Source: Novosphingobium resinovorum
Lineage (GTDB): Bacteria; Pseudomonadota; Alphaproteobacteria; Sphingomonadales; Sphingomonadaceae
DNA: 64,000 nt
NCBI RefSeq assembly: GCF_001742225.1
Contig: NZ_CP017075.1
Location: 1,178,001 to 1,242,000 of the forward strand
Direction: 5' to 3'
In this document: positions 45,079 through 59,930 of the stretch, piece after piece
Position numbering within the stretch: the stretch's first letter is position 1
Layout of the letters: every line of letters begins with the position of its first letter
Notes under the pieces: model-generated
The model's input: the letters and a program-made list of their open reading frames with translations, nothing else
Database searches by the model: none
What the model was told of the DNA's origin: nothing
Program-made: the position numbers and the translations under genes

Positions 45079-45125
45079 TTCGCCGGTTGCTGCCTTCGCG
45101 GGCAGCAGCATCGACAACCCCAGGT

Positions 45126-45167
45126 CGGGGAGTGGCGCAGCCCGGTAGCGCGCTTGCTTTGGGAGCA
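45126..45167 (+). pseudogene. 5' half of tRNA-Pro(TGG): left attachment junction
   Basis: CGGGGAGTGGCGCAGCCCGG and the following 22 bases are the first 42 bases of a tRNA-Pro, through the anticodon loop TTTGGGA (anticodon TGG) and the first three bases of the 3' anticodon stem (GCA). An intact gene would continue AGAGGTC; here the sequence changes to GTCTTATTTG and the integrase stop codon follows at 45171-45173. No 3' half is found in the window. This is the left junction of the integrated element; the core is likely CTTTGGGAGCA or nearby. Confidence 0.85.
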
Positions 45168-45170
45168 GTC

Positions 45171-46334
45171 TTATTTGATCCTCCTAATGTAAGGTTTTCT
45201 GCGGGTTTCAGTGCTTTTCTCCCCGACCAGTTCGGGACTATTTCGGGACTGCTGAACAGCATCCATTGCACGGCGGATATCGTCGTCGCCGACATGGGCG
45301 TAACGCGCTGTCGTCTCGATCCGAGTATGTCCCAACAGCTTCTGCGTCACCTTAAGATTAGATGCTCGCGTGATTCGGCTGGCGGCCGTGTGTCGCAGGT
45401 CATGGAACCTGAAGTCGGTGATGCCCGCCTCGTCGAGCGCTCGATACCATTTGCGGTTCCACCCCTCCTTACTGAATGGATATCGCTCGCCCTTGATCCT
45501 GCGCGGACGATCGGCGCGCGCGGGCGCAGGACGCTCGCACACGTAGGTGAACACGAAGGGCCCGACGCGGGGGCGGTTCGCGATGATCTCCTTCATGCGA
45601 TCGGTCAGCGGGAATTCATGCCAGACATCGCCCTTGGTGTGGACCGAGGCCGTACCTCTCCGCTGATCGACCTTGGACCACAGCAGCTTGACCACGGCCG
45701 TGCGGCGAGCACCAGAGAGCAGTGCGAACTCGACGAGATCGGCCATGTCGGGATACCGCTCCGTCAGCACCGCGAACAACGCAGCTTCCTCCTCCGGAGA
45801 CGCTTCGCGGACGCGCTCTTTCGGCTCCTTCAGAAGGTGGCTTCCCCATTCGATGGGATCGTCGGCGATTTTGTATTTCTTCGCCAGGAAGCGATGGGCG
45901 CGGCGCAGCAGTTCCGTCTCGCGGTTCACGGTGGCAGCGGACACGGCCGGGCGGACCTCGCCACGCTTGATACGGCGATTCGGAAAGCTGGGCTCGATCC
46001 GGCGCAGGGCGACCATGCGAGCGACCTCGATGTCGCCTATGTCCTGCAGCAACGTTTTCGGCCCAATCAGGCGCAGGACATTGCCCAACTGGTACTCAGT
46101 CACCTTGGCGTTCCGGTCGAACTTGCCCTTGGCATCCCAGTAGATGCCGATACCTTCATCCAGGGTGACAGAGGGCTTGCCCTTTTTACCGGTAGCGACC
46201 TCAGTGCGATGATCTCGCTCGAATCGCTCGGCATCGCGCTTGGATTTGCAGTTGGTGGATCCGTGATAGCGGACACCGCGGTACTGGTAATCGAAGTGGT
46301 AGTAGGGACTGGCCTTCGGCTTGTAGACCGTCAT
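45171..46334 (-). CDS. Tyrosine site-specific integrase
   Basis: A 387-residue phage integrase that recombines the element with the tRNA-Pro gene. N-terminal arm-binding and SAM-like domain (to about 170), then the catalytic domain with Arg210 (LLSGARRTA), His311 and Arg314 (RFHDLRHTAAS), His336 and nucleophile Tyr345 (LLGHTRIETTARYAH). All catalytic residues are present. Its stop codon is three bases from the tRNA fragment and its start overlaps the preceding xis-like gene (ATGA). Confidence 0.95.
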   Translation of the reverse strand: MTVYKPKASPYYHFDYQYRGVRYHGSTNCKSKRDAERFERDHRTEVATGKKGKPSVTLDEGIGIYWDAKGKFDRNAKVTEYQLGNVLRLIGPKTLLQDIGDIEVARMVALRRIEPSFPNRRIKRGEVRPAVSAATVNRETELLRRAHRFLAKKYKIADDPIEWGSHLLKEPKERVREASPEEEAALFAVLTERYPDMADLVEFALLSGARRTAVVKLLWSKVDQRRGTASVHTKGDVWHEFPLTDRMKEIIANRPRVGPFVFTYVCERPAPARADRPRRIKGERYPFSKEGWNRKWYRALDEAGITDFRFHDLRHTAASRITRASNLKVTQKLLGHTRIETTARYAHVGDDDIRRAMDAVQQSRNSPELVGEKSTETRRKPYIRRIK

Positions 46335-46606
46335 CGCTTATTCCGCTGGCTGAAGGGCACGATCTCGCCGCCAGCAGCCGGGCCACGTACGACGCGGCGC
46401 CGGCCGCCTGCGAGAGGATCGGCGACCAGCTGCTGCCGCTGGATGCACAGGGCAACATACTCGTCGCAGTCCTCGGGACGGTAGGCGATATTGCGCGCCG
46501 TCAGCTTGACGTAGGTGATCTTGCCCTTGCTGCGCAGTTCGCGGAGCGTGCGCGGGGCCAAGCGGAGGCGTTCGGCCGCTTCGGCTTCTGTGAGCAGCGC
46601 GGTCAT
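46331..46606 (-). CDS. Excisionase-like helix-turn-helix protein
   Basis: A 91-residue protein with a MerR/Xis-type winged helix at its N terminus (TEAEAAERLRLAPRTLRELR, SKGKITYVKLTARNIAYRPE), the form typical of phage excisionases and directionality factors. A basic, Gly/Arg-rich tail follows. Overlaps the ThiF-like gene before it and the integrase after it by four bases each. Recombination direction control is inferred from fold and position. Confidence 0.8.
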   Translation of the reverse strand: MTALLTEAEAAERLRLAPRTLRELRSKGKITYVKLTARNIAYRPEDCDEYVALCIQRQQLVADPLAGGRRRVVRGPAAGGEIVPFSQRNKR

Positions 46607-47376
46607 ACCGCTTTCCTTTCGGGTTTGGGGTGAGGCAGTGCAATCGGGGCCGTGTGGCCGCTCACCAGATTGATGAAGGCGCCGGCGTGCCCGATCGATC
46701 CCCGGCCGAGCAGATCGAACAGCAGGGCTAGGGCGTGGCTGGCGAGCACGCGGTTGATGAACAGGGACTGCCGCTCGAGGGCTTCGGCGACGGAGCACGA
46801 AGGCGCGTCGTCCTCCGGCATCCCTTCGTCGGCCAGTTCGGGAAAGCTCTCCAGCACGGTCGGCAGACGCACATAGCCTTTGCGATCGTAAAGCCGTGCC
46901 GGAGTGCCGAGCAGCAGCTGGCCATCCATGGCGCGGTTGCCGAGATCCAGCCAATAGGCAGGCACCCGACTAGTACTCGCGTCCATGGCCGCGCCCAGCG
47001 CGCGGCGGGCCGAGGCCGTGTCGACACAGCTGATGAGCATGTCGACATTATCCAGACCGATTGCTTCGGGCGCGCGGCCGTGAACCGCCTGCCAGCGCAA
47101 ACCATGCGCGAGATTGATCCGCTCCGTCAGGGTGCGGGCCTTCGAGCTTCCGACGTCGCAGCGATAGAACGGCTGGCGGCCGAGGTTCGCCTCGGTAACG
47201 ACATCGTCGTCGACGACGGTAACGTCCAGCCAACGCGACGAGATTTCACGCAGCGCCGCGTCGAGCGAGGCAAGGCCCATCAGCATCTGCGCGCCGTTGC
47301 CACCGCATCCGACCAGCAGGACCTTGATACCGCGCTGGCCGAAGTTGGCCGGTAGAAGGTGCCGTTCAGGCGTCAT
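46603..47376 (-). CDS. PRTRC system ThiF/E1-like adenylating enzyme
   Basis: A 257-residue ThiF-fold protein. Nucleotide loop VLLVGCGGNG (19-28); Asp-rich strand TVVDDDVV (53-60); the adenylation set N64, R67, Q68 in ANLGRQPFY; and ISCVDTASARRA with Cys117. A second conserved region SCSVAEALERQ has Cys194, a candidate thiolate. E1-like enzymes activate the C terminus of a ubiquitin-like protein with ATP; the likely substrate is PRTRC protein C encoded in this operon. The ATG at 47376 is chosen because GGAG lies six bases before it. It overlaps PRTRC A by 11 bases. Confidence 0.9.
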   Translation of the reverse strand: MTPERHLLPANFGQRGIKVLLVGCGGNGAQMLMGLASLDAALREISSRWLDVTVVDDDVVTEANLGRQPFYRCDVGSSKARTLTERINLAHGLRWQAVHGRAPEAIGLDNVDMLISCVDTASARRALGAAMDASTSRVPAYWLDLGNRAMDGQLLLGTPARLYDRKGYVRLPTVLESFPELADEGMPEDDAPSCSVAEALERQSLFINRVLASHALALLFDLLGRGSIGHAGAFINLVSGHTAPIALPHPKPERKAV

Positions 47377-48025
47377 GGTCATCTCCAGTGAAGGGGCTGC
47401 GCGGCATCGGCAGGAACATGCCGCCGGCACACAGACGCGCCGCAGCGGTCGGGCCGGCGGGATGATCGAGGCGACCGAAGACTATCGCTATCTTGGTGGA
47501 ATGCGCGTCATCGGCATCGTCGGTCGCGCTGAAGAATGCTGCGCCGTTGCCATGGCTGTGGATGTCGCAGACGATGTGCGAGCCTTGCGCCAGAGTCGGC
47601 GTGCGATAAACGAGCCGCGACGGCGTCGCCGCTTCGATCTCCGGATACGCAATGGTGAACTGGGCGGTGTGCTCGTCCCAGATCACGAACGCTGCGGCCT
47701 CGTTCGGCAGCGCCGCCTCGAAGTGCTGCAGAATATGGCGGAGCAACTCGCGCGGGATAAGCCCGCAACGCAGTTCGGCCATCGGATCGCCGACCTTCCC
47801 ATAGGGCACGTGTCCGTCGAGTGTCGGGGCAATGTGCGCGTCGAGGGCAAGCCAAGGGCGCCGCAAGATCAACATCACGCCATCGGCGCCTACCAACAGG
47901 CCCTGCCCCGCTCGTACGGATCGCAATTCCTCGATCGCCGGCGTCTGCCCGCTTGGGGGCACCGGGTAGCAAGGGAAAGCAGCCAGCACCGCGGCGGCCG
48001 TCAGGAAGTCGTTGGGCGACGTCAT
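47366..48025 (-). CDS. PRTRC system protein A, JAMM-motif peptidase-like
   Basis: A 219-residue protein with a JAB/MPN fold in its second half: Glu109 (LPNEAAAF), then the metal motif CDIHSHGNGAAFFSATDDAD with His156, His158, Ser166 and Asp169 in the H-x-H...S-x-x-D pattern. JAMM proteins remove or process ubiquitin-like proteins. All metal-site residues look intact, so an active protease is plausible. Translation is coupled to PRTRC B before it (ATGA overlap). Confidence 0.9.
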   Translation of the reverse strand: MTSPNDFLTAAAVLAAFPCYPVPPSGQTPAIEELRSVRAGQGLLVGADGVMLILRRPWLALDAHIAPTLDGHVPYGKVGDPMAELRCGLIPRELLRHILQHFEAALPNEAAAFVIWDEHTAQFTIAYPEIEAATPSRLVYRTPTLAQGSHIVCDIHSHGNGAAFFSATDDADDAHSTKIAIVFGRLDHPAGPTAAARLCAGGMFLPMPRSPFTGDDHDA

Positions 48026-48801
48026 GCGTGGGTACTCCGCGCTATCAAGCTTCCCACCGTCACCGGCGCGCCCTCGTTTCGCGTGCTGCGACTGAAAACA
48101 AATGGGCGTAGGCGCTTGACCGGGAACCGCTTCGTGCCCCGCGCTGCCAGATTGTCCCACAGCCTGACCAGGCCACCCTTTCCGCTAACGGTCTTTTCCT
48201 GCCCCGGGTTGGGATGGGTCGACCACGAATCGAAAACGGCGCGCTCGTACTCAGCGATGCTGGCGATCGTCAGCGTCTTAGGCTGCGGGATGTTTCCCCA
48301 GCACAAGCGGCCATCGATGAACACGTTCAGTACCGGAGAAAAAAGTACGAGCGTTTCCGCGCCTGGTCGCTTGCTTTCCGGGAGGGCGTAGACGCCAAGG
48401 CCCTTTCGGGTCGCGACCAGCAAATGGGCCGGGTACGGCAGATCCACAGTGGTGCGCTGCCGAAGGGCGCGCAGATCCGCTGCCGGTGATGACAGGGCGA
48501 AGTAGGCGGTGCGAACCTGCTCTGGAACCCACCATGCGAGCACGTCCGGATGCGATACCAGCACGTTGTCCGGAAGTATCTCCGGCGGCGCCGCGCGTCC
48601 CAGCGCTGCGGTCCACTGCCGCAAGTGAGCCCGGGTTAGCGGAGCACCGGCGGCGATCGTCGGTTGCCCCTCGCCATGCTCGACCGCGTGCATGCTGGCG
48701 AACGCGGCGGTGCGCTGCGGCCCGTTTCTATAAAGGAGAATGGCGTTCGTCAGCGTCAGGCCGCGGTCGGTTGCCTCGAACTCGGTGGAATGCTGGCTCA
48801 C
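48022..48801 (-). CDS. PRTRC system protein B, E2-like candidate
   Basis: A 259-residue protein matching PRTRC protein B. The central part (LPYPAHLLVATRKGLGVYAL, PESKRPGAETLVLF, SPVLNVFIDGRLCWGNIP) follows the strand order of ubiquitin-conjugating enzymes, and Cys167, in the place of the E2 active-site cysteine, is the only Cys in the protein. The start is GTG at 48799-48801. It overlaps both neighbours by four bases. The E2 role is an inference from pattern; comparative-genomics literature has linked PRTRC genes with ubiquitin-like pathways. Confidence 0.85.
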   Translation of the reverse strand: MSQHSTEFEATDRGLTLTNAILLYRNGPQRTAAFASMHAVEHGEGQPTIAAGAPLTRAHLRQWTAALGRAAPPEILPDNVLVSHPDVLAWWVPEQVRTAYFALSSPAADLRALRQRTTVDLPYPAHLLVATRKGLGVYALPESKRPGAETLVLFSPVLNVFIDGRLCWGNIPQPKTLTIASIAEYERAVFDSWSTHPNPGQEKTVSGKGGLVRLWDNLAARGTKRFPVKRLRPFVFSRSTRNEGAPVTVGSLIARSTHA

Positions 48802-49989
48802 CGACGGTCCTTCCCGCTGGTGGGGTCGATCGCGATCAGATCCTGTGCGGCGCGCATGAACTCCACGCCGACCTTGAGGCTCTGGAACCACGCATCGATG
48901 TCGGCCGCATCGGTGACCGTCGCCATACCGACGACGTCCATGAAGCCTATCTCCATGCCGTGCCTTCCGACGTCGTCGAGCTCGCGCGCGAAAGCCTCGG
49001 CGCAGACAAGCGTCATGGGTGCAAGAAACGCCCGTTCCTCATATTCGGGCAGGCATTCGATCGCGAGATCGCTCTCGTAGTTCCACGCCCCGGCGGCGCT
49101 ACGCTGCGCGATGACCGTGTCGGCAGCCGATCGCACAGCGCGTATCCGGCTCCTCAGGCCCTTGGGCAGTTTCGACAGTGGCGCCGCGTTCTCCGTCAGC
49201 ATCCACTCGGGTCGCCGCCCCCTGATGGCTGACGGCAACATCTCCTCGTCGATGTCCTCCAGTGCGTGGCCCTGCCACTGCATCAGGCTTGCTATCGCTT
49301 CCCTGTCTTCCGTCTCGCCGTCCCAGTAGTAGGCGGAAAGCTCCTCCATCAGATCCTCGAAGCCGAACACAGGCAGCACGGAAGGGATCGTCTCGGTCAG
49401 GGCCTTGTATGCGGCAGCCCGCCAGCCCAACGGGGCGACTGGACCAAGCATCGTCTGCGAGAGCACGTTGCACTTCTCGATCCAGCCCAGTTCGACCTGG
49501 CCAACGCTGTCGCAGATGAGCGCGATTGCTGGCGGATGATCGTCATTGCCATTGATTACGATGGCCCGCAGATCGAGCATGTCGACGCAGCCCACGATAT
49601 CCAGCACGGCACGGTCAAAGGTACGCTCGATGTGCTTGCGTGCCTCGTGGCGCGTGAAGCACTGGCCCGCCTCGCCCTGCGCCGCCACCCATTGTCCGAT
49701 TGCGCGGTAGTGAGGCTCCAGCGGAGCGTCGAAGATGGCGGGAATGGTTGCCGCCAGCGCGACAGACCGTCCAGCCAGGTCACCCGAGGGGCGCGAGCCG
49801 GAGGCCGGGCGGAGGCGTGATGGGCTCGCGCACGTCGTCCGCCGGGGCGACGACGGCCGCGTGAAGCGCTTTGAGGCGGTCGCTGATGACTGGTTGGGTA
49901 GCAGAGGGCGAGTGGCCATCGTCGGATTCGATCCATTCGAGGAGAGGTTTGCGCAGGACGGGCGGGATGCCCGCGCCATCCGTCGTCAT
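48798..49989 (-). CDS. PRTRC system protein F, split by an apparent +1 frameshift
   Basis: The main frame (48798 upward) encodes ALAATIPAIFDAPLEPHYRA through to SLKVGVEFMRAAQDLIAIDP, matching PRTRC protein F. Its expected N terminus lies in a different frame: ATG 49987-49989, two bases after the PRTRC C stop, opens MTTDGAGIPPVLRKPLLEWI and runs 69 codons with GC-rich third positions to TGA 49780-49782. Joining the frames by skipping one base at GGG-TGA-C gives about 396 residues. This is either a sequence error, a real mutation, or a programmed +1 shift of the RF2 type. The upstream part of the main frame (MARASRPSCANL...) is Ser/Arg/Pro-rich and looks non-coding. Function unknown. Confidence 0.75.
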
Positions 49990-49991
49990 CG

Positions 49992-50198
49992 TCAGCCCTT
50001 CGTGCCAACAGCGCGGCGGTACTCGGTGACGTGCGCCGTGCCGGAAACGCCGAGATCGACCGCCTCGGCATTGAGGATCGCGGGGTAAAGCGTGGCGTGA
50101 TAGGCGCGCAGGCCCTGCGCATCGCCCGCAAGATGCGACGGCACGGGCAAGTCCATGCCGTCATAGCGGTACACGCGGGTCAGTTGATTGATTTCCAT
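49992..50198 (-). CDS. PRTRC system protein C, ubiquitin-like
   Basis: A 68-residue protein: MEINQLTRVYRYDGMDLPVP, a helix AQGLRAYHATLYPAILNAEA, and a final strand ending YRRAVGTKG. Size, strand-helix-strand pattern and a C-terminal Gly after a flexible tail fit a ubiquitin-like modifier that needs no trimming before activation. The ATG at 50196-50198 is preferred to a longer open frame. It lies 44 bases after PRTRC E and just before PRTRC F. Confidence 0.9.
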   Translation of the reverse strand: MEINQLTRVYRYDGMDLPVPSHLAGDAQGLRAYHATLYPAILNAEAVDLGVSGTAHVTEYRRAVGTKG

Positions 50199-50242
50199 AG
50201 ATGCCTCCGGCCGATGATCGTGGGTGTTGAAAGGGTTGGGGC

Positions 50243-50650
50243 TCACCAGAGGCTGGCGGGTTCGCCTGGCTTCGGGTCTGGCACAGGCGCTGGCGTCGCG
50301 GCGGGTTCCGGCTTGGCGGGCGTGGTTGCCGCCTTCGTCGTGGCCGGTTTGACCTTCGCCTTCGCAGCTTCGGTCGCCTGCTTCTGCTCGGCAAGCTGGT
50401 CGCCCAGGGCCTTGCGTGAGGCGATCAGTTGCCCGAGCGCGCCAGCCTCTCCGAGCGCCAGTTCCGCGTCGATCTCCGCCGCAGTAGCGGTGATCGAGAT
50501 CGGGCGGATTTCTTCGGCGCCCGGCGCGTTCTTCACGCCTTCAGCCTTGCGCGGCATGATGATGAGCGTGACCGTCTCGTCCGGTCCTGCAGCGAGGTCG
50601 AGGCCGAGCGAGTAACGCGACAGCAGCGGGAGAAGGCTGGTGATCAGCAC
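50243..50650 (-). CDS. PRTRC system protein E
   Basis: A 135-residue protein with the PRTRC E core (TVTLIIMPRKAEGVKNAPGA, IRPISITATAAEIDAELALG, IASRKALGDQLAEQK), then a low-complexity Lys/Ala/Pro tail of about 45 residues (AKVKPATTKAATTPAKPEPA) like those of DNA-associated proteins. The start is GTG 50648-50650, overlapping the ParB-like gene. Function unknown. Confidence 0.88.
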   Translation of the reverse strand: MLITSLLPLLSRYSLGLDLAAGPDETVTLIIMPRKAEGVKNAPGAEEIRPISITATAAEIDAELALGEAGALGQLIASRKALGDQLAEQKQATEAAKAKVKPATTKAATTPAKPEPAATPAPVPDPKPGEPASLW

Positions 50651-51957
50651 GGCAAGGAATCCTTTTCAGTGGTGGAGGGGGCGTTGACGCTCGCGTCGAC
50701 AGCGGGCGGCGAATATTTTCCGTCGAGCGTGAGCGCGCCGGGGAGGCGGCCGGACCAGTCGAACCCAGTGGCGTTGAGCATTCCGGCGACGATAGCGTCG
50801 GTCTTCGCCTGCATGAGCTTGGCGAAGGCTTTCGTGCCCATGTGATCGATCAGGCCGCATTCCTTGGCGATGAACTTGAGCTCATCCTTGCCGAAACGGC
50901 CAAGGAATACCGCGTCCACCTTCCACGTGTCGCGGAGGATAGATTCGAAGGCACGCAGGATTTCCGGATCGCCCTCACCGGCCTGGATCAGTGCCGCACG
51001 CCAAGCGGATTCACGAACATCAGCGGCGCGGCTCGCGATCATTGCGGCATTCACGGTCTGCTTCGGCGCTTCGGTGGGGCTCGCCTTCTTGGGAACGATC
51101 GCCGATCGCGGTGCCGAACTGGAGACGTCAGGCTCCGCCGGGGCCGCGTCAGGTGCCGGCACGGCATTCTTTTCATCAGCCACCGGTTCCGCCGATTCGG
51201 TCTTCAATTGGAAGCAGCCGGGGTTGGTGCAGTGACCGTCTTCAACATGCGTCGCAAAAAGGGCGCGCTGCGCTGCGGAATTGAAGGGGCAGGCCGTGCA
51301 TTCGGCCTTGTCGAAGCGAGCAGCAGCGAGGCTCTGCGTCACGCGCATGAGCAACTCGCGCGTCTTGTTTACGTCCAGCCCGGCAGTCAGGATCGTGTCG
51401 AGAGCCTTTTCCTGCTTGTCGCCGGGCACCGCGGCCAAGAGTTCGGCGTGGCCGACCTTGATGCGGCGTTCGTCGAGCGCGAGCTTCACGGGTTCGGACA
51501 AGTTGGCCAGCGCCAGGCGTCGATCGAGCTTGGCCGGGGACCAGCCAAGCCGACGTGCGGCTTCAGCTCGATCGTTCTGGCTGGCCGCCAGAACGCGCAC
51601 GGCGGCGTCTGCCTGCTCCGTTTCGGAGGCATCATCGCGGACATCGTTCTCGTCGATCGCAGCCTCGACCGCTTCGTCATCGGTCATATCGCGAATCAGG
51701 ACCGGGGCATTGCCGTCCCTGCCAAACGCTTCGAGCGCAGCCCTGTACCGGCGACCGCCAGCGACGAGGAGATAGCCCTCACCGCCATCGGGAGCGGGTC
51801 TGACCAGCATCGGCTGCAGCATGCCGCGCAATTGGAGCGAAGCCACGAGCTCCTCATGGGCCTTGCTGTCGAAATATCGGCGCGGGTTATAACCTGGCGT
51901 TATGCTAGACAGCGGCAATACGACCGCCCGCTGCTGACCTTTGGTGTCGAGTGTCAT
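50644..51957 (-). CDS. PRTRC system ParB-family protein
   Basis: A 437-residue ParB/Srx-fold protein. ParB N-terminal domain: LPLSSITPGYNPRRYFDSKA, LVASLQLRGMLQPMLVRPAP, YLLVAGGRRYRAALEAFG (the GERR-like CTP/ATP motif here is GGRR). The central HTH region is NDRAEAARRLGWSPAKLDRR. A Cys/His cluster (ECTACPFNS, EDGHCTNPGC) may bind zinc. The C-terminal part is Pro/Ala-rich, then helical. It may bind DNA or act as a nuclease like some plasmid ParB-like proteins. ATG 51955-51957 is chosen; the frame runs on upstream without homology. Confidence 0.88.
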   Translation of the reverse strand: MTLDTKGQQRAVVLPLSSITPGYNPRRYFDSKAHEELVASLQLRGMLQPMLVRPAPDGGEGYLLVAGGRRYRAALEAFGRDGNAPVLIRDMTDDEAVEAAIDENDVRDDASETEQADAAVRVLAASQNDRAEAARRLGWSPAKLDRRLALANLSEPVKLALDERRIKVGHAELLAAVPGDKQEKALDTILTAGLDVNKTRELLMRVTQSLAAARFDKAECTACPFNSAAQRALFATHVEDGHCTNPGCFQLKTESAEPVADEKNAVPAPDAAPAEPDVSSSAPRSAIVPKKASPTEAPKQTVNAAMIASRAADVRESAWRAALIQAGEGDPEILRAFESILRDTWKVDAVFLGRFGKDELKFIAKECGLIDHMGTKAFAKLMQAKTDAIVAGMLNATGFDWSGRLPGALTLDGKYSPPAVDASVNAPSTTEKDSLPC

Positions 51958-52310
51958 GCTGCTACGCTCCTGAAATAGCTGGCGTGGATCGCGCGCTCGG
52001 CGGCATCGATCTGCGCGGTGTGTTCGAAAATGCGGGGAAGGAAGGCGCTGGCGTCGGCGAGGTCGCCCGCGAGGACGGAAGCGAAGCAAGCCTCGATCGC
52101 GGTCAGTTGATCTGGCGTGTATCCGGGGACTTCGCGACTAAGAGCCGAACGCAGCTGATCGACCGACGCCTCTTCCAATGCCTCATCGAGGCTGACCTCG
52201 GCGGACACCGAAACGTAATCGACTGAGAAGCCGTTGCGACGAGCTTCGTTCACCGCACTTTCGAAATCGCCAGCGCTGACATGAACGTCCATGGTGACCC
52301 TATCGCTCAT
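51954..52310 (-). CDS. Phage protein of unknown function
   Basis: A 118-residue acidic protein (MSDRVTMDVHVSAGDFESAV ... AIHASYFRSVAA), mainly helical. It overlaps both the ParB-like gene and the helicase gene by four bases, so it is surely translated as part of the operon. No family recognised; it may be a PRTRC accessory. Confidence 0.72.
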   Translation of the reverse strand: MSDRVTMDVHVSAGDFESAVNEARRNGFSVDYVSVSAEVSLDEALEEASVDQLRSALSREVPGYTPDQLTAIEACFASVLAGDLADASAFLPRIFEHTAQIDAAERAIHASYFRSVAA

Positions 52311-53425
52311 ACGATCACCGTGACCTGTTCGGCAGCGCGCGTAACCGCCGTGTACAGCCAGTTCCGCTTCGCATCCCGGAACGACCCGCTTTCATCGAAG
52401 ATGATGACGTTGTCCCACTGCGAGCCCTGCGATTTGTGGCAGGTGATCGCCCACCCGAAGGTGAACTCCTGCGTTCCGCGCTTGGCCTTCCAGTCGATGG
52501 TCTGCTCGGTGCCGTTGAAGAAGTGCTCGAACACCTCGACCTTGATCGGGTCGCGCTTCTCGTCGAGCGAGGCGACGCGGAGCGCCAGCTTGCCGTCGCC
52601 AAGCTCCTCGATCTTCTGAGCGTCCCAGAGGCCACCGTTGAAGATGTGCTTCTCCTTGTCGTTCCGGAGGCAGATCAGGCGGTCGCCTGCGGTCGGATGC
52701 CACGCCTGCGCCGCGCCCTGCAGGCCCTTCATCGCCCGGATGCGCTGGTTGTAGGAGACGCGGGTGCGGTTGAGGCCGCAGAGCAGCTGATCGGCCCCAA
52801 GGACGAGTTCGCCCAGGCGGTCCCGGCCGAGCGCGCTGCTGCGCGTCACGAGGCTACTGCCGTGCGTGCCGACCTGCAGCGGCTTCCCCTGCCGAATGTC
52901 CATCGACATGCGGATGATGGGGTTGTCCTGTGCTTGGCGGTGGACCTCAGTGAGCATCACATCTGGCTCGCCGTTGATGAAGAAGCCTTCGCCCTTCACC
53001 GGCGGCAGCTGCGCGGGATCGCCCAGGACAAGGATGCGCTTGCCGAAGCTGAGCAGGTCGCGCGCCAGATCCTCGCCGACCATGGACACCTCGTCCACGA
53101 TCAGCAGCGCGGCATCGGACAGGTCGCTCTGCTCGTTGAGCTTGAACGCGGCGATGCCGGTGACCTCGTCGATCTCCACGCTGTAAATAAGCGAGTGGAT
53201 CGTCGAGGCGTCCTTGCAGCCCTTTTTGCGCAGGACGAGCGCGGCCTTGCCGGTGAAGGTGGCGTAGAGCACCTTGCCCTTGACCTTCGCTGCCAGTTCC
53301 TTCGCCAGCGTCGTCTTGCCCGTCCCAGCGTAGCCGAACAGGCGGAACACCTGCTGGCCGTTGGGATCACCGAGCCAAGTCGACACGCTGCGGATGGCCG
53401 CGTCCTGTTGCGGGGACCAACTCAT
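52307..53425 (-). CDS. RecD/Dda-like 5'-3' DNA helicase
   Basis: A 372-residue SF1 helicase. Walker A GYAGTGKTTLAKEL (motif I), Walker B ALLIVDEVSM (motif II), LGDPAQLPPVKG (motif III), then a C-terminal UvrD-like domain with FGWAITCHKSQGSQWDNVII and NWLYTAVTRAAEQVTVIV (motifs V and VI). Its size and layout resemble T4 Dda and RecD2 cores. It probably acts in phage recombination or replication. The ATG at 53423-53425 starts the protein (MSWSPQQDAAI). Confidence 0.92.
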   Translation of the reverse strand: MSWSPQQDAAIRSVSTWLGDPNGQQVFRLFGYAGTGKTTLAKELAAKVKGKVLYATFTGKAALVLRKKGCKDASTIHSLIYSVEIDEVTGIAAFKLNEQSDLSDAALLIVDEVSMVGEDLARDLLSFGKRILVLGDPAQLPPVKGEGFFINGEPDVMLTEVHRQAQDNPIIRMSMDIRQGKPLQVGTHGSSLVTRSSALGRDRLGELVLGADQLLCGLNRTRVSYNQRIRAMKGLQGAAQAWHPTAGDRLICLRNDKEKHIFNGGLWDAQKIEELGDGKLALRVASLDEKRDPIKVEVFEHFFNGTEQTIDWKAKRGTQEFTFGWAITCHKSQGSQWDNVIIFDESGSFRDAKRNWLYTAVTRAAEQVTVIV

Positions 53426-53792: not shown

Positions 53793-54200
53793 TCAGGCTG
53801 CCTTTCGTTCGACAGGGTCGGTCCAGACCACGCCATGCTCGGCGCCGAATGCGTAGATGCACTCGATCAGGTCGCTGAACTCGGACTTGGAGAGGCGGCT
53901 GGACTTGAAGCCGAGCGGGACAACGCCCTTGCCATCCAACGTGGGTTCGAAGGTGCACGAGAAGCCGGCGGCGTTCATGAAGAGCGCCTTCCAGACCTCG
54001 GTCGACAGCACCCGGCCTTCGGGCTTCGCGCGCGAGATGTCGGACAGCATGGCCCACATCTTCGCGTTCTGATCGCTGGTGCGCGCCGCTTCCTTGATGT
54101 TGAGCACCGCGCCCATCGGCGCCCTCTCGATCAACTGGTGGGCCAACGCCCGCACCGACGGGTTGACGAGCGTGAGGGTCTGTCCGCCTTGCTTAGCCAT
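53793..54200 (-). CDS. ninB: NinB-family recombination protein
   Basis: A 135-residue protein matching lambda NinB (Orf), a single-strand-binding recombination mediator that helps load annealing proteins. Core: LIERAPMGAVLNIKEAARTS, QNAKMWAMLSDISRA, EVWKALFMNAAGF, FKSSRLSKSEFSDLIECIYA. It lies with ERF, SSB and a helicase, a full phage recombination set. Two bases separate it from the VVA0879-like gene. Confidence 0.9.
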   Translation of the reverse strand: MAKQGGQTLTLVNPSVRALAHQLIERAPMGAVLNIKEAARTSDQNAKMWAMLSDISRAKPEGRVLSTEVWKALFMNAAGFSCTFEPTLDGKGVVPLGFKSSRLSKSEFSDLIECIYAFGAEHGVVWTDPVERKAA

Positions 54201-55082: not shown

Positions 55083-55679
55083 TCAAAATGGAATGTCGTC
55101 GTCAAGGTCGTCACCGAACCCGCCGCCGCCATTGCTGTTGCCCCAGCCATCGTTGGCGGAGCCGTTACGACCATCACGGCCGTTGTCTTGCCAGCCACCA
55201 CGATTGTCATCGTAGACCTTGCGGTCGCCACGGCCGCCATCAGCCCAGCGCCCGCCGCCCTGCCCGCCGCGATCGTTCGACCGGCTGCGCTGATCGCCGC
55301 CCCAGTCGCCGCCGCGCTGATCGTCCGGCTTATTATCGAGCATGGTCATGACCCCGCCGTGCCCGCCGACGCTGACCTCGGTGGTGTAACGGTCGTTGCC
55401 GTTCTGATCCTGCCACTTGCGGGTGCGCAGCTGGCCCTCGATGTAGACCTTCGAGCCCTTGCGCAGGAAGCGCTCGGCGACACTAACAAGGCCGTCGCTG
55501 CCGATGGTGACGCTGTGCCACTCGGTGCGCTCCTTGCGGTCGCCGGTCTGGCGGTCCTTCCAGCTTTCCGAGGTGGCGACACGGAAGGTCGCGATACGCC
55601 CGCCGTTCTGGAACGACTTGATCTCCGGATCCGCGCCCAAGTGGCCGAGGATGATGACCTTGTTGACTGAGCCCGCCAT
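55083..55679 (-). CDS. ssb: Single-stranded DNA-binding protein
   Basis: A 198-residue SSB: an OB fold over residues 1-112 ([59 protein letters not shown]), a long Gly/Asp/Arg/Asn-rich linker, and the acidic tip DDDIPF that recruits partner proteins. ATG 55677-55679 gives the usual start (MAGSVNKV). Part of the phage recombination block. Confidence 0.96.
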
Positions 55680-56045: not shown

Positions 56046-57008
56046 TCAGGCGACCTTTCGATCTTCGATGATGTTGACGCCGGGGATCGAGCGGACACCT
56101 GCCGCAACATCCTCATCGACAAGGACCTTGAGAGCAGCGCGGAAGCGATCGGGATGACGTTCGATGTAATGCCGAACGACGGCGCCCCCCTGCCCCTCGA
56201 TCATCTCCGCGCGCCAGTACGAGCGCATGGAGACGGCGCGAACTTCGCCGTGGGCCTGCACCTTTTCGCGCTCGACGCGGCGGGCAGCGGCTGCGGCATC
56301 TTCCGCGTGCTGCATGAGCTCGGCAGCTTCTTCGATCGCGCCGAGGTCGCTGGAGCCTGCGGCTTCCTTGTGCGCCTCAAGCGCTGCGGCAGTGGCCTTA
56401 TCGGCCTCCGCGCGCGCCAGACGCTCGCGCTTGAGCTTCTCCGCCTCCTGCTTCTGCAGCCACGGGGTCAGAAGGTTTCCAAGGGCGTATGCGGCCTTCA
56501 CCACGGAACCAGGCTTCCGGTTCTTCATCGGCGCGATGTAGGCGTTGTAGCGATCCTGGATCTCGGTGACCTTGAGGTCGATCGGAGCCTTTTCGATCTT
56601 GCGAGCATCGTCAGCGAGGCTCGTCGCCTCCTGCAGACGCTGGCGGAGCGATGCGACGGCATCGGCCTGCGCCTGATTCTCGATGGCGACGCCGTCTGCC
56701 CAGTTTTTCGCTTCGACGAGCAGGTCATCCATGTGGATCTGGACGGCTTCCCACTTGGGCTCGATGGTCACCTGCTCCTCGGCAGGCGGGTTGTTGTCGC
56801 CCATGACGGCCCGGGGGTTCGTATCATCGCCACCGGCGAGCGCAGCGGCTTCGAACTCGGCCGTCAGCTTGTCGACATGCGCCTGCAGCGCCTCTATCTC
56901 AGCGGTGCGGCCCGGCTCGGTGCGGCTGAGCTTGTTGAGGGCGTTCTTCGCGTAGGAGAGCGGCATAGTCGAGATTTCGACCGCGCCCTTGCTGGACTGG
57001 TACTGCAT
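56046..57008 (-). CDS. Coiled-coil phage protein, unknown
   Basis: A 320-residue, mostly helical protein: MPLSYAKNALNKLSRTEPGR, a long central coiled coil (VASLRQRLQEATSLADDARK, KQEAEKLKRERLARAEADKA), and a C-terminal folded part (MRSYWRAEMIEGQGGAVVRH ... VRSIPGVNIIEDRKVA) suggestive of a small DNA-associated domain. It lies between ERF and the 120-residue gene. No family recognised. Confidence 0.75.
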   Translation of the reverse strand: MQYQSSKGAVEISTMPLSYAKNALNKLSRTEPGRTAEIEALQAHVDKLTAEFEAAALAGGDDTNPRAVMGDNNPPAEEQVTIEPKWEAVQIHMDDLLVEAKNWADGVAIENQAQADAVASLRQRLQEATSLADDARKIEKAPIDLKVTEIQDRYNAYIAPMKNRKPGSVVKAAYALGNLLTPWLQKQEAEKLKRERLARAEADKATAAALEAHKEAAGSSDLGAIEEAAELMQHAEDAAAAARRVEREKVQAHGEVRAVSMRSYWRAEMIEGQGGAVVRHYIERHPDRFRAALKVLVDEDVAAGVRSIPGVNIIEDRKVA

Positions 57009-57019
57009 GGTTGGGCCTT

Positions 57020-57829
57020 TCAGAAGGGGACGTCGCTGTCGTCGATGTCGCCGAACTCGGAGCCGCCACGGGCGCCCTCGTTCCGACCGCCACGGCGCGT
57101 GTCGTTGTTGGAGTTGCCGTCGGTTTCACCGGCACGGTTCGTTTCGGACTTCGCCATCTCAGCCAGCTTGTCTTCCAGCTGGTTTATGACCTTGATGGCC
57201 TGGCGATCGGTCAGGTCCTGCAAGTCCGCGATATCGTAGTGATCTAGGATCACCTTCGTCTTCGCACCGGTGACCTTGAGCAGATCGGTGATCTTGGCCC
57301 ACTGCGGGCGAGAAATCAGCGGTTCGCCGCGCTGCTGGTGGGACTGCTGACGCGGCGCCACGGTATGCGTCGTGGCGTCGGCGTCGTTGTCGCCCTCGGT
57401 CGGGATTTGGAAGACCTGCAGTTCGGCGTATTTCATGGCGGCCGATTGCGCTTTATTGGCGCTCTTATCGGCGGTATCCATCGCCTCTCCGACAGTCCGC
57501 ACGTAATCAAACGAGCCGTCGATTGCTGACACCAGCTTGAAGCGGACCGTCAGAATCGTGTAGGTGATGACGCCGCCCTTTTGGGTCTGACGTTCTTCAC
57601 GCTCCATCTTCTCGACGTCGGGAAGGATAACGAGCCTGTTCTCAGCGAGAATGCCGCACAGCAGGTTGTAGACGTCATCGATGCCGCGGAACTGGTAGTT
57701 CTGCTGCTGGTTCTTCCTGTCCTTCGACAGGCCTTCCTTGGAACAAGCGAGCATCACGTCAGATATTGCCGTGTAGACAGCCGGGACTGCAGTTGCGGCC
57801 GCTGGTTCGATTTTGGTCTGCGCGTTCAC
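57020..57829 (-). CDS. ERF-family single-strand annealing protein with SSB-like tail
   Basis: A 269-residue recombinase. The ERF core is residues 15-150: VYTAISDVMLACSKEGLSKD, NYQFRGIDDVYNLLCGILAE, KGGVITYTILTVRFKLVSAI, DKSANKAQSAAMKYAELQVF. A helical segment follows (around 180-225), then a disordered Asn/Arg/Gly-rich stretch ending FGDIDDSDVPF, close to the SSB acidic tip. ERF proteins anneal complementary strands during phage recombination. Start codon ATG 57827-57829 overlaps the gene before it. Confidence 0.92.
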   Translation of the reverse strand: MNAQTKIEPAAATAVPAVYTAISDVMLACSKEGLSKDRKNQQQNYQFRGIDDVYNLLCGILAENRLVILPDVEKMEREERQTQKGGVITYTILTVRFKLVSAIDGSFDYVRTVGEAMDTADKSANKAQSAAMKYAELQVFQIPTEGDNDADATTHTVAPRQQSHQQRGEPLISRPQWAKITDLLKVTGAKTKVILDHYDIADLQDLTDRQAIKVINQLEDKLAEMAKSETNRAGETDGNSNNDTRRGGRNEGARGGSEFGDIDDSDVPF

Positions 57830-59450: not shown

Positions 59451-59930
59451 TCATGGCTTCAGTTGTTGATCTAAGCCGCCAACACGAGGCGGCCCTTCGG
59501 GATCTATCGGCTTATCGGACCCCGGAAGCTCTTGAAGAAATAAGGTTGCTTGAAAAGCACTTGGAAAGCTCATTGCGAGCCGCTGAGCGCGTTCGTCCTC
59601 ATCAGGGTCTACATCAATCGCGGCCAGCAAGCCCGCGAACATCTCGGCCAATGCGCTTGCATTAGGAAGAAGAACGGGAACATTTATCGCGGCTTGCGGT
59701 GATGACGGTCCGCTGAGTGAGATACCGAGGTCCTCGGTGCCAAGCAGGCGTTGTACCGTTGTGTTCGCCATGGCGGCGATCGCGTGCAACAAGTCGCCGG
59801 CCGGGATTGACCCTTTTTCCCACCTGCCGGCGGTCGACTGCGACACGCCTAGTCGCTCAGCGAATTCCGCCTGGCTTAAACCTAAGGTCGTACGAATCGC
59901 GCTAATTTTGCGGGCTAGTTGCTTGGTCAT
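59451..59930 (-). CDS. XRE-family phage repressor (CI-type)
   Basis: A 159-residue protein. The N-terminal helix-turn-helix (residues 5-60) is ISAIRTTLGLSQAEFAERLG, VSQSTAGRWEKGSIPAGDLL. The C-terminal 90 residues show no Ser-Lys S24/LexA protease motif (no Ala-Gly cleavage site with Ser and Lys), so RecA-driven self-cleavage is not expected. It diverges from the Cro-like gene across an 84-base region packed with operators, one of which overlaps its start codon. Confidence 0.88.
   Translation of the reverse strand: MTKQLARKISAIRTTLGLSQAEFAERLGVSQSTAGRWEKGSIPAGDLLHAIAAMANTTVQRLLGTEDLGISLSGPSSPQAAINVPVLLPNASALAEMFAGLLAAIDVDPDEDERAQRLAMSFPSAFQATLFLQELPGSDKPIDPEGPPRVGGLDQQLKP

Follow-up and report, generated by a model that had tools for sequence, protein, structure and literature searches.

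A predicted PRTRC ubiquitin-like conjugation module in the early recombination-excision operon of a Novosphingobium resinovorum prophage and in other phages

We analyzed a 64,000-nucleotide stretch of the Novosphingobium resinovorum genome (contig NZ_CP017075.1, positions 1,178,001 to 1,242,000; "the window," whose numbering is used below), which carries a ParB-related, ThiF-related cassette (PRTRC) at 46603 to 51957, on the minus strand and in the order ParB-E-C-F-B-A-ThiF, within the left part of a prophage. A sequence-only reading of the window, made without database searches, had named seven PRTRC genes; all seven lie at the predicted place and on the predicted strand, and five of their products exceed NCBIfam cut-offs (window proteins were searched with NCBIfam and Pfam profiles, and scores are given as bits/cut-off). 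These are the E1-like ThiF (46603 to 47376, with an alternative start at 47430; TIGR03736, 264/145), the JAMM peptidase A with its DUF2016 domain (47366 to 48025; TIGR03735, 167/102), the E2-like B (48022 to 48801; TIGR03737, 155/131), E (50243 to 50650; TIGR03741, 74/38), and ParB, with ParB N-terminal and helix-turn-helix (HTH) domains (50644 to 51957; TIGR03734, 328/279). ParB resembles Spo0J (structure 1vz0, 5.7e-25) and Noc in structure-profile matches. The 68-residue C (49992 to 50198), the putative ubiquitin-like modifier, has one match to Pfam Prok_Ub, above cut-off (PF14454, 57/25), and A and B pass the Pfam cut-offs for Prok-JAB plus DUF2016 and for Prok-E2_D, in line with the JAMM, ubiquitin-like, and E2-like assignments made from sequence alone. 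F (48798 to 49919) is identified by its position in the cassette and a weak NCBIfam match (TIGR03742); a profile of window-type F matches the protein annotated as PRTRC F in Paraburkholderia sprentiae (9.4e-5) and gives no match to F of the Cupriavidus plasmid pMOL28 or of Burkholderia phage BgVeeders33, whose own F scores slightly below the Pfam alpha-hel2 cut-off (23.7 versus 25). None of A, B, F, C, and E matches PHROGs at an E value of 0.001.

A 48.6-kb prophage integrated at tRNA-Pro(TGG) carries the cassette. A 44-bp direct repeat (attL, 45124 to 45167) holds the 5′ part of the split tRNA gene, and a second copy lies 48,585 bp to the right (L004:13709-13752, extrapolated to 93709), where the tRNA gene is intact. 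The left part encodes the tyrosine integrase (45171 to 46334, minus strand; PF00589, 76 bits; phrog_1, 7.5e-52), an excisionase-like HTH protein (46331 to 46606, minus strand; phrog_66, 3.5e-6; PF12728, 29.7 bits), a helicase, NinB, HNH, SSB, an exonuclease, Erf, and a repressor-like gene. The right part encodes head (terminase, portal, head morphogenesis, head protease, major head protein, connector), tail (sheath, tape-measure/lytic tail protein, baseplate, tail fiber), and lysis functions (endolysin, holin, spanin). The PHROGs scan covered 40 element proteins; the 20 scanned to the right form a phage module (2 without a match), and the plasmid or integrative and conjugative element (ICE) genes that would have spoken against a prophage are absent among them. 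Because att repeats, integrase and excisionase, and head, tail, and lysis genes are all found, the element looks like an intact temperate tailed phage with a myovirus-type structural module. A TrwC (MOBF) relaxase model, the one relaxase type searched, matches none of 21 sphingomonad-type viral records, this prophage included, and both of two sphingomonad plasmids.

The cassette belongs to a leftward unit that runs from orf103 to int, comprises 23 genes (some of them called in this analysis, and counting the small gene X described below), has no gap larger than 44 bp, and also holds the recombination genes and xis-int. Gene scans therefore agree with the sequence-only placement of the cassette between the recombination and excision-integration genes of a phage early operon. 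That reading also had most cassette genes overlapping by four bases, which is true of two of the six junctions within the seven-gene set (F/B and B/A); 4-bp overlaps also occur at orf112/ParB, ThiF/Xis, and Xis/Int, while A/ThiF overlap by 11 bp, ParB/E overlap by 7 bp, and E and C are 44 bp apart.

The same block recurs in many related phages. A search of IMG/VR with the window ThiF gave 22 loci on 21 contigs, among which L006 is this same prophage (100%); 19 loci have the complete ParB-E-C-F-B-A-ThiF order, and contig ends truncate the remaining three. Phage hallmarks (terminase, portal, or tail models) were detected in 15 of the 21 records, in G018 and G021 by weak matches only, and Terminase_6N gave nothing over cut-off in 21 records (the 4-kb record G005 was left out of this and part of the other hallmark scans). 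The portal and terminase models that match differ between records, which places the cassette in different phages. Flanking open reading frames (ORFs; 20 scanned of 155 picked, 6 without a match) encode, among others, thymidylate synthase, helicases, methyltransferases, integrases, and terminase. Of 50,697 annotated phage records, only that of the sewage phage BgVeeders33 matches the window ThiF across 80% or more of the protein's length. NCBIfam cut-offs are exceeded by all six of its cassette proteins (E, C, F, B, A, ThiF), and those other than ThiF are annotated as hypothetical. Searching with its ThiF yielded 47 further IMG/VR contigs (hereafter, with BgVeeders33 itself, BgVeeders33-type), and a wider profile yielded 5 more, for a total of 73 contigs with a ThiF relative, nearly always accompanied by the cassette. 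All 48 BgVeeders33-type loci carry B, A, and ThiF, and all but one, which begins at a contig end, carry E, C, and F as well; a portal was found in 21 of the 30 records tested. A more distant cassette is carried by a 139-kb viral contig (L207), with ThiF, B, C, and E signals and no A found in the stretch. Spacing also varies: in L022 and L008, A is about 600 bases farther from B than in other loci, and in L022 about 5.5 kb separate ThiF from xis-int.

Outside phages, relatives of ThiF occur in 373 of 72,556 plasmid records. In the host family, PRTRC ThiF exceeds its cut-off in 13 of 397 genomes, including this one, and in none of the nine other listed members of the genus. Most names in a set of 63 loci are those of Sphingomonadales; the few exceptions include Bacillus sp. 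2B10 and bins assigned to Microbacterium or Micrococcales. We found no report of PRTRC in phages in the literature searched, which excluded most subscription papers and preprints; in the accessible text of papers that mention both PRTRC and prophages, the cassette is always borne by plasmids or an ICE. The portions seen of the paper describing BgVeeders33 (PMC9658991) class it as a myovirus and do not contain ThiF or ubiquitin, and by term counts the text of a jumbo phage survey (PMC7824862) does not contain PRTRC, ThiF, or JAB. A Rhizobium tropici paper was discarded as a PRTRC source, since in the text seen the term matches the plasmid name pRtrCIAT899 and not the cassette.

We next compared phage and plasmid copies. 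When 86 loci were compared by their flanking genes, 55 grouped with plasmids pSH2 and pDC04 in a single component, and the 20 viral loci used all fell outside it. A tree of ThiF, A, and B was built from the 83 loci that carry the complete trio (63 distinct, including 2 outgroups), giving an ingroup of 61 distinct copies, 37 plasmid-type and 24 phage-type; the latter comprise 18 IMG/VR loci, 5 genome contigs that share flanking genes with viral contigs, and L086, an unlinked single locus assigned to phage by default. The sphingomonad clade needs one change between phage and plasmid context, compared to 19.1 on average and never fewer than 14 in 1,000 label shuffles; a second tree needs two. In the IQ-TREE topology plasmid copies nest within phage copies with low support (47), and by the approximately unbiased (AU) test the data are compatible with a phage clade (P = 0.77) as well as with a plasmid clade (P = 0.80); for these reasons we dropped a direction of transfer. 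Ratios of nonsynonymous to synonymous substitution (dN/dS) of 0.00 to 0.42, computed for five genes across 11 phage-type locus pairs, indicate purifying selection, and the two nearest plasmids share 74 to 77% ThiF identity with the window. The sequence-only description of the cassette as "built into" the phage operon holds for its location but suggests a recent guest, whereas the single context change across 61 copies makes the phage cassettes of this clade appear to be old residents; they also recur in a second phage lineage.

Between C and F lies a small gene that the sequence-only gene list had left out. X (49780 to 49989, minus strand) encodes 69 residues ending in GLRLAPLG and occurs at every one of the 80 loci whose C is complete (57 distinct sequences, after removal of 8 loci that lacked a full-length C), including sphingomonad plasmids such as pSH2, where it is annotated as hypothetical. 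Third-position variation continues up to the X stop codon, and conservation in the F frame (+1) begins exactly there (51 distinct windows). Within X, an F-frame ATG occurs in 56 of 57 distinct sequences, compared to 36.1 (standard deviation [SD], 3.6) expected from synonymous shuffles, and the F frame stays open as far as the junction in all 57, compared to 43.7 (SD, 2.8), in statistics that ignore the relatedness of the sequences. The deposited annotation of pDC04 begins F at the same ATG. Translation of F thus most likely starts at 49919, inside X, creating a 140-base +1 overlap; a programmed +1 frameshift from X into F, which the onset of F-frame conservation at the X stop had made attractive, is less likely by the same ATG and open-frame shuffles. 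A search for X relatives returned five unnamed short proteins, X has no Pfam match, and PADLOC gives a weak DpdF match (18 bits). All 47 BgVeeders33-type loci have a different small ORF in this slot, joined to C as a fusion in 8. A single family uniting it with X is not supported (hhalign probability, 0.1%); the two agree in size and place only.

The enzymes of the cassette conserve the residues expected of a conjugation pathway. We aligned 61 distinct ThiF, 60 A, and 61 B sequences from sphingomonad phage and plasmid copies, BgVeeders33 (as sole representative of its type), and pMOL28. ThiF retains its nucleotide-binding glycines in 60 of 61 sequences and the cysteine of a PSCS motif in 61 of 61; A retains Glu109, His156, His158, Ser166, and Asp169 in 60 of 60, with R56 and W58 invariant in 15 sequences; and B retains Cys167 in 61 of 61 and His196 in 60 of 61. 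We take these motifs, on family knowledge, to be E1, JAMM, and E2 sites, which makes the conserved ThiF cysteine, the JAMM residues of A, and the cysteine and histidine of B candidate catalytic residues. The best structure matches of ThiF are the NEDD8 and UBA6 E1 enzymes.

In C, the presumed modifier, GTKG or GAKG occurs in all 128 phage, sphingomonad-clade, and pMOL28 copies (BgVeeders33 counted once; pMOL28 contributes GAKG), followed by 0 to 100 residues. Sphingomonad-clade C ends exactly in GTKG at 73 of 80 loci and in GTKGR at 7, whereas BgVeeders33-type C, with GTKG in 47 of 47, ends there in 2, adds 1 to 3 residues in 3, and adds 60 to 100 residues in 42 (33 with a related, helical-looking C terminus, 8 fused to the X-like protein, 1 alone). 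Extensions behind the constant GTKG are exchangeable among these loci (L097-L143, L028). A constant GTKG with changing sequence behind it looks like a processing site, and we infer that A cuts C after it. In 10 plasmids, picked from the 373 for spread, C has a short extension in three of the four with A (Azospira has A and no extension) and ends in Lys/Arg/Asn-Gly in all six without a recognizable A in the fetched stretch (L096, L211, L212, L213, L215, L216); in Vibrio fluvialis and Flagellatimonas C was named by position or annotation only, its profile giving no match. Sphingomonad phages retain A although their C mostly needs no trimming, an argument that A takes C off targets. A single glycine is the probable end of the modifier, so that with the conserved tail RRAVGTKG trypsin would leave a single glycine on the target instead of the GG-like adducts anticipated from sequence alone. 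Such a mark has the mass of carbamidomethylation and would be overlooked in ordinary proteomics.

Partition functions appear dispensable to the module in phages. PRTRC ParB is below cut-off in all 31 BgVeeders33-type records tested (30 of the 47 IMG/VR loci plus BgVeeders33; a control plasmid scored 405 bits), five of which have weak ParB-domain matches (53 to 56 bits); these phages thus carry E-C-F-B-A-ThiF without PRTRC ParB. Where ParB is present it measures 425 to 524 residues in 15 phage-type loci versus 519 to 565 in 16 plasmid-type loci, aligned from start to stop. The actin-like PRTRC D, reported missing from sequence alone, is indeed absent: it has no match in the host genome (a search with no control match), in 19 phage records including the IMG/VR record of this prophage, or in two sphingomonad plasmids, compared to 353 bits for the pMOL28 control, and its match in pAcX50f is below cut-off. 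D is an associated gene outside the contiguous cassette and does not define it, as sphingomonad plasmids annotated as PRTRC also lack it. The absence of ParB and D suggests that neither is needed for the module in phages. Perfect 14-base palindromes, the only parS-like form searched for, are not repeated.

Together, these results make it fairly probable, in our judgment, that an apparently intact PRTRC ubiquitin-like conjugation module is resident in the early recombination-excision operon of a temperate tailed phage. Conjugation chemistry is probable; the timing, targets, and biological role that follow are our inference. Taking the E1-E2-JAMM chemistry from knowledge of these families, we propose that ThiF would adenylate the C-terminal glycine of C (GTKG) and hold C as a thioester, that B would accept C on Cys167 and pass it to lysines of target proteins, and that F, E, and X may serve as helpers or specificity factors. 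A would trim longer C precursors after GTKG in BgVeeders33-type phages and strip C off targets in sphingomonad phages. The likeliest use is tagging of host or rival-element proteins soon after entry or induction, because the module is shared by phages and plasmids, lies tightly among early genes, and dispenses with ParB in some carriers. More tentatively, and with appreciable doubt about the whole, two phage lineages may both tag such proteins, with BgVeeders33-type precursor tails of 60 to 100 residues cut by the JAMM protein after GTKG, the small partner sometimes serving as the tail, and the single-glycine mark being one that ordinary proteomics would overlook.

Several observations weigh against this interpretation. 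The PRTRC profiles that the sequence-only reading had proposed as a check recognize ThiF, A, B, E, and ParB, but in the window C (TIGR03738, 33/46) and F (TIGR03742, 17.5/58.4) fall below their NCBIfam cut-offs. A has one marginal structure match, profiles of B, C, and F gave nothing credible against solved structures, and the E2 fold of B is predicted from Pfam; the E profile gave a single structure match at chance level. The association of A with extended C comes from 10 of 373 plasmids and runs one way, as Azospira shows. A search for sigma-70-type promoters found none, and co-expression is accordingly argued from gene packing. We found no PRTRC biochemistry in the literature searched.

The module is close to several described systems. 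PRTRC of plasmids and ICEs (Sphingobium pSH2, Cupriavidus pMOL28) has the same genes in the same order; the carriers here are phages, of which the BgVeeders33 type drops ParB and mostly extends C. In the text seen of Iyer et al. 2006 (PMC1779556), group 6d combines a ubiquitin-like protein, an E1-like protein, a helical protein, a JAB protein with an N-terminal Arg/Trp domain, and an E2-like protein with a cysteine followed by a conserved histidine, with Ralstonia metallidurans among the carriers. The window set fits this description (ubiquitin-like C, E1-like ThiF, R56 and W58 of A, C167 and H196 of B); that text names no phage carrier of 6d and lacks the word "ParB." According to the portions seen, Bil (BilABCD; PMC11354881) joins the same four functions, a ubiquitin-like protein, E1, E2, and JAMM, in one operon, but BilA has two ubiquitin-like domains and the Bil E2 a CEHH motif, while PRTRC C is a one-domain protein whose tail ends in only one glycine. 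Type II CBASS has the E1/E2 and JAB enzymes Cap2 and Cap3 (PMC10097602, seen in part), with E1 and E2 domains in one protein and cGAS itself conjugated, unlike the separate modifier C of PRTRC. Phages such as lambda and T1 also pair a ubiquitin-like domain (tail assembly protein I) with a JAB protein (TAPK), but these are tail genes, with no E1 or E2 listed alongside.

Other uses of the cassette deserve weighing. It might be a phage-borne defense in which the lysogen tags proteins of incoming phages, much as Bil caps tail fibers, and so brings about superinfection exclusion. Prophages often bring exclusion genes. A bacterial ISG15-like system reportedly attaches ubiquitin-like proteins to a central tail fiber (PMC11364771, seen in part). 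We nonetheless regard defense as rather unlikely: the cassette is packed into the early and excision unit and not a separate cargo slot, and PADLOC returns only a weak E1-E2 match for ThiF besides the weak DpdF match of X. A ParB-centered role in DNA maintenance, in which C tagging regulates ParB or its partners and stabilizes the element, would suit the likeness of ParB to Spo0J and Noc and its position at the head of the cassette in 19 uncut sphingomonad viral loci and most plasmids read. It seems more doubtful still, because BgVeeders33-type phages keep E-C-F-B-A-ThiF without PRTRC ParB over cut-off, which weakens stability via ParB alone; in addition, D is missing from 19 phage records, no perfect 14-base palindrome is repeated, and an integrated prophage has no need of partition.

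Two further readings are remoter. Enzymes of the ThiF family also act in thiamine and molybdopterin synthesis, which appear among the lower-ranked window matches, so C might be a ThiS- or MoaD-like sulfur carrier and not a protein tag; the accompanying JAMM peptidase and E2-like protein with its conserved cysteine, and the NEDD8 and UBA6 E1s as best ThiF structure matches, make this very improbable. That the cassette is passing plasmid cargo of no use to the phage draws on its plasmid relatives and is the hardest to credit, in view of purifying selection, separate phage lineages, conserved gene order, and the single context change on the tree. Tagging of host or rival-element proteins remains the use we prefer.

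Bacterial ubiquitin-like conjugation has been studied best as anti-phage defense, and whole cassettes under purifying selection in phages reverse that direction. They offer a genetically removable setting for finding PRTRC substrates, and the phages that lack PRTRC ParB allow tagging to be told apart from partition. A single-glycine mark as predicted here would explain how conjugates could have been missed and points to a way of finding them.

Upstream of ParB, the early region continues on the minus strand with a 112-residue protein (51954 to 52292; 4-bp overlap with ParB; no family match above cut-off), a Dda-like helicase (52307 to 53425; phrog_325, 3.2e-101), a NinB/Orf recombination mediator (53793 to 54200; phrog_72, 1.6e-24), SSB (55083 to 55679; phrog_44, 2.8e-42), an exonuclease-like protein (56046 to 57008; phrog_10477, 2.1e-45), an Erf-like annealing protein (57020 to 57829; phrog_155, 4.8e-31), and a repressor-like HTH regulator (59451 to 59930; phrog_8 and phrog_4). 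The 632-residue portal protein of the prophage (L003:9921-11819) has a C-terminal MutT/Nudix match (phrog_1198, 3.6e-14) and is thus a portal-Nudix fusion. Outside the att core, a repeat containing GTTCGGGACTATTTCGGGACTG lies near both prophage ends (45230 to 45251; extrapolated 93593), and these repeats are possible integrase arm sites.

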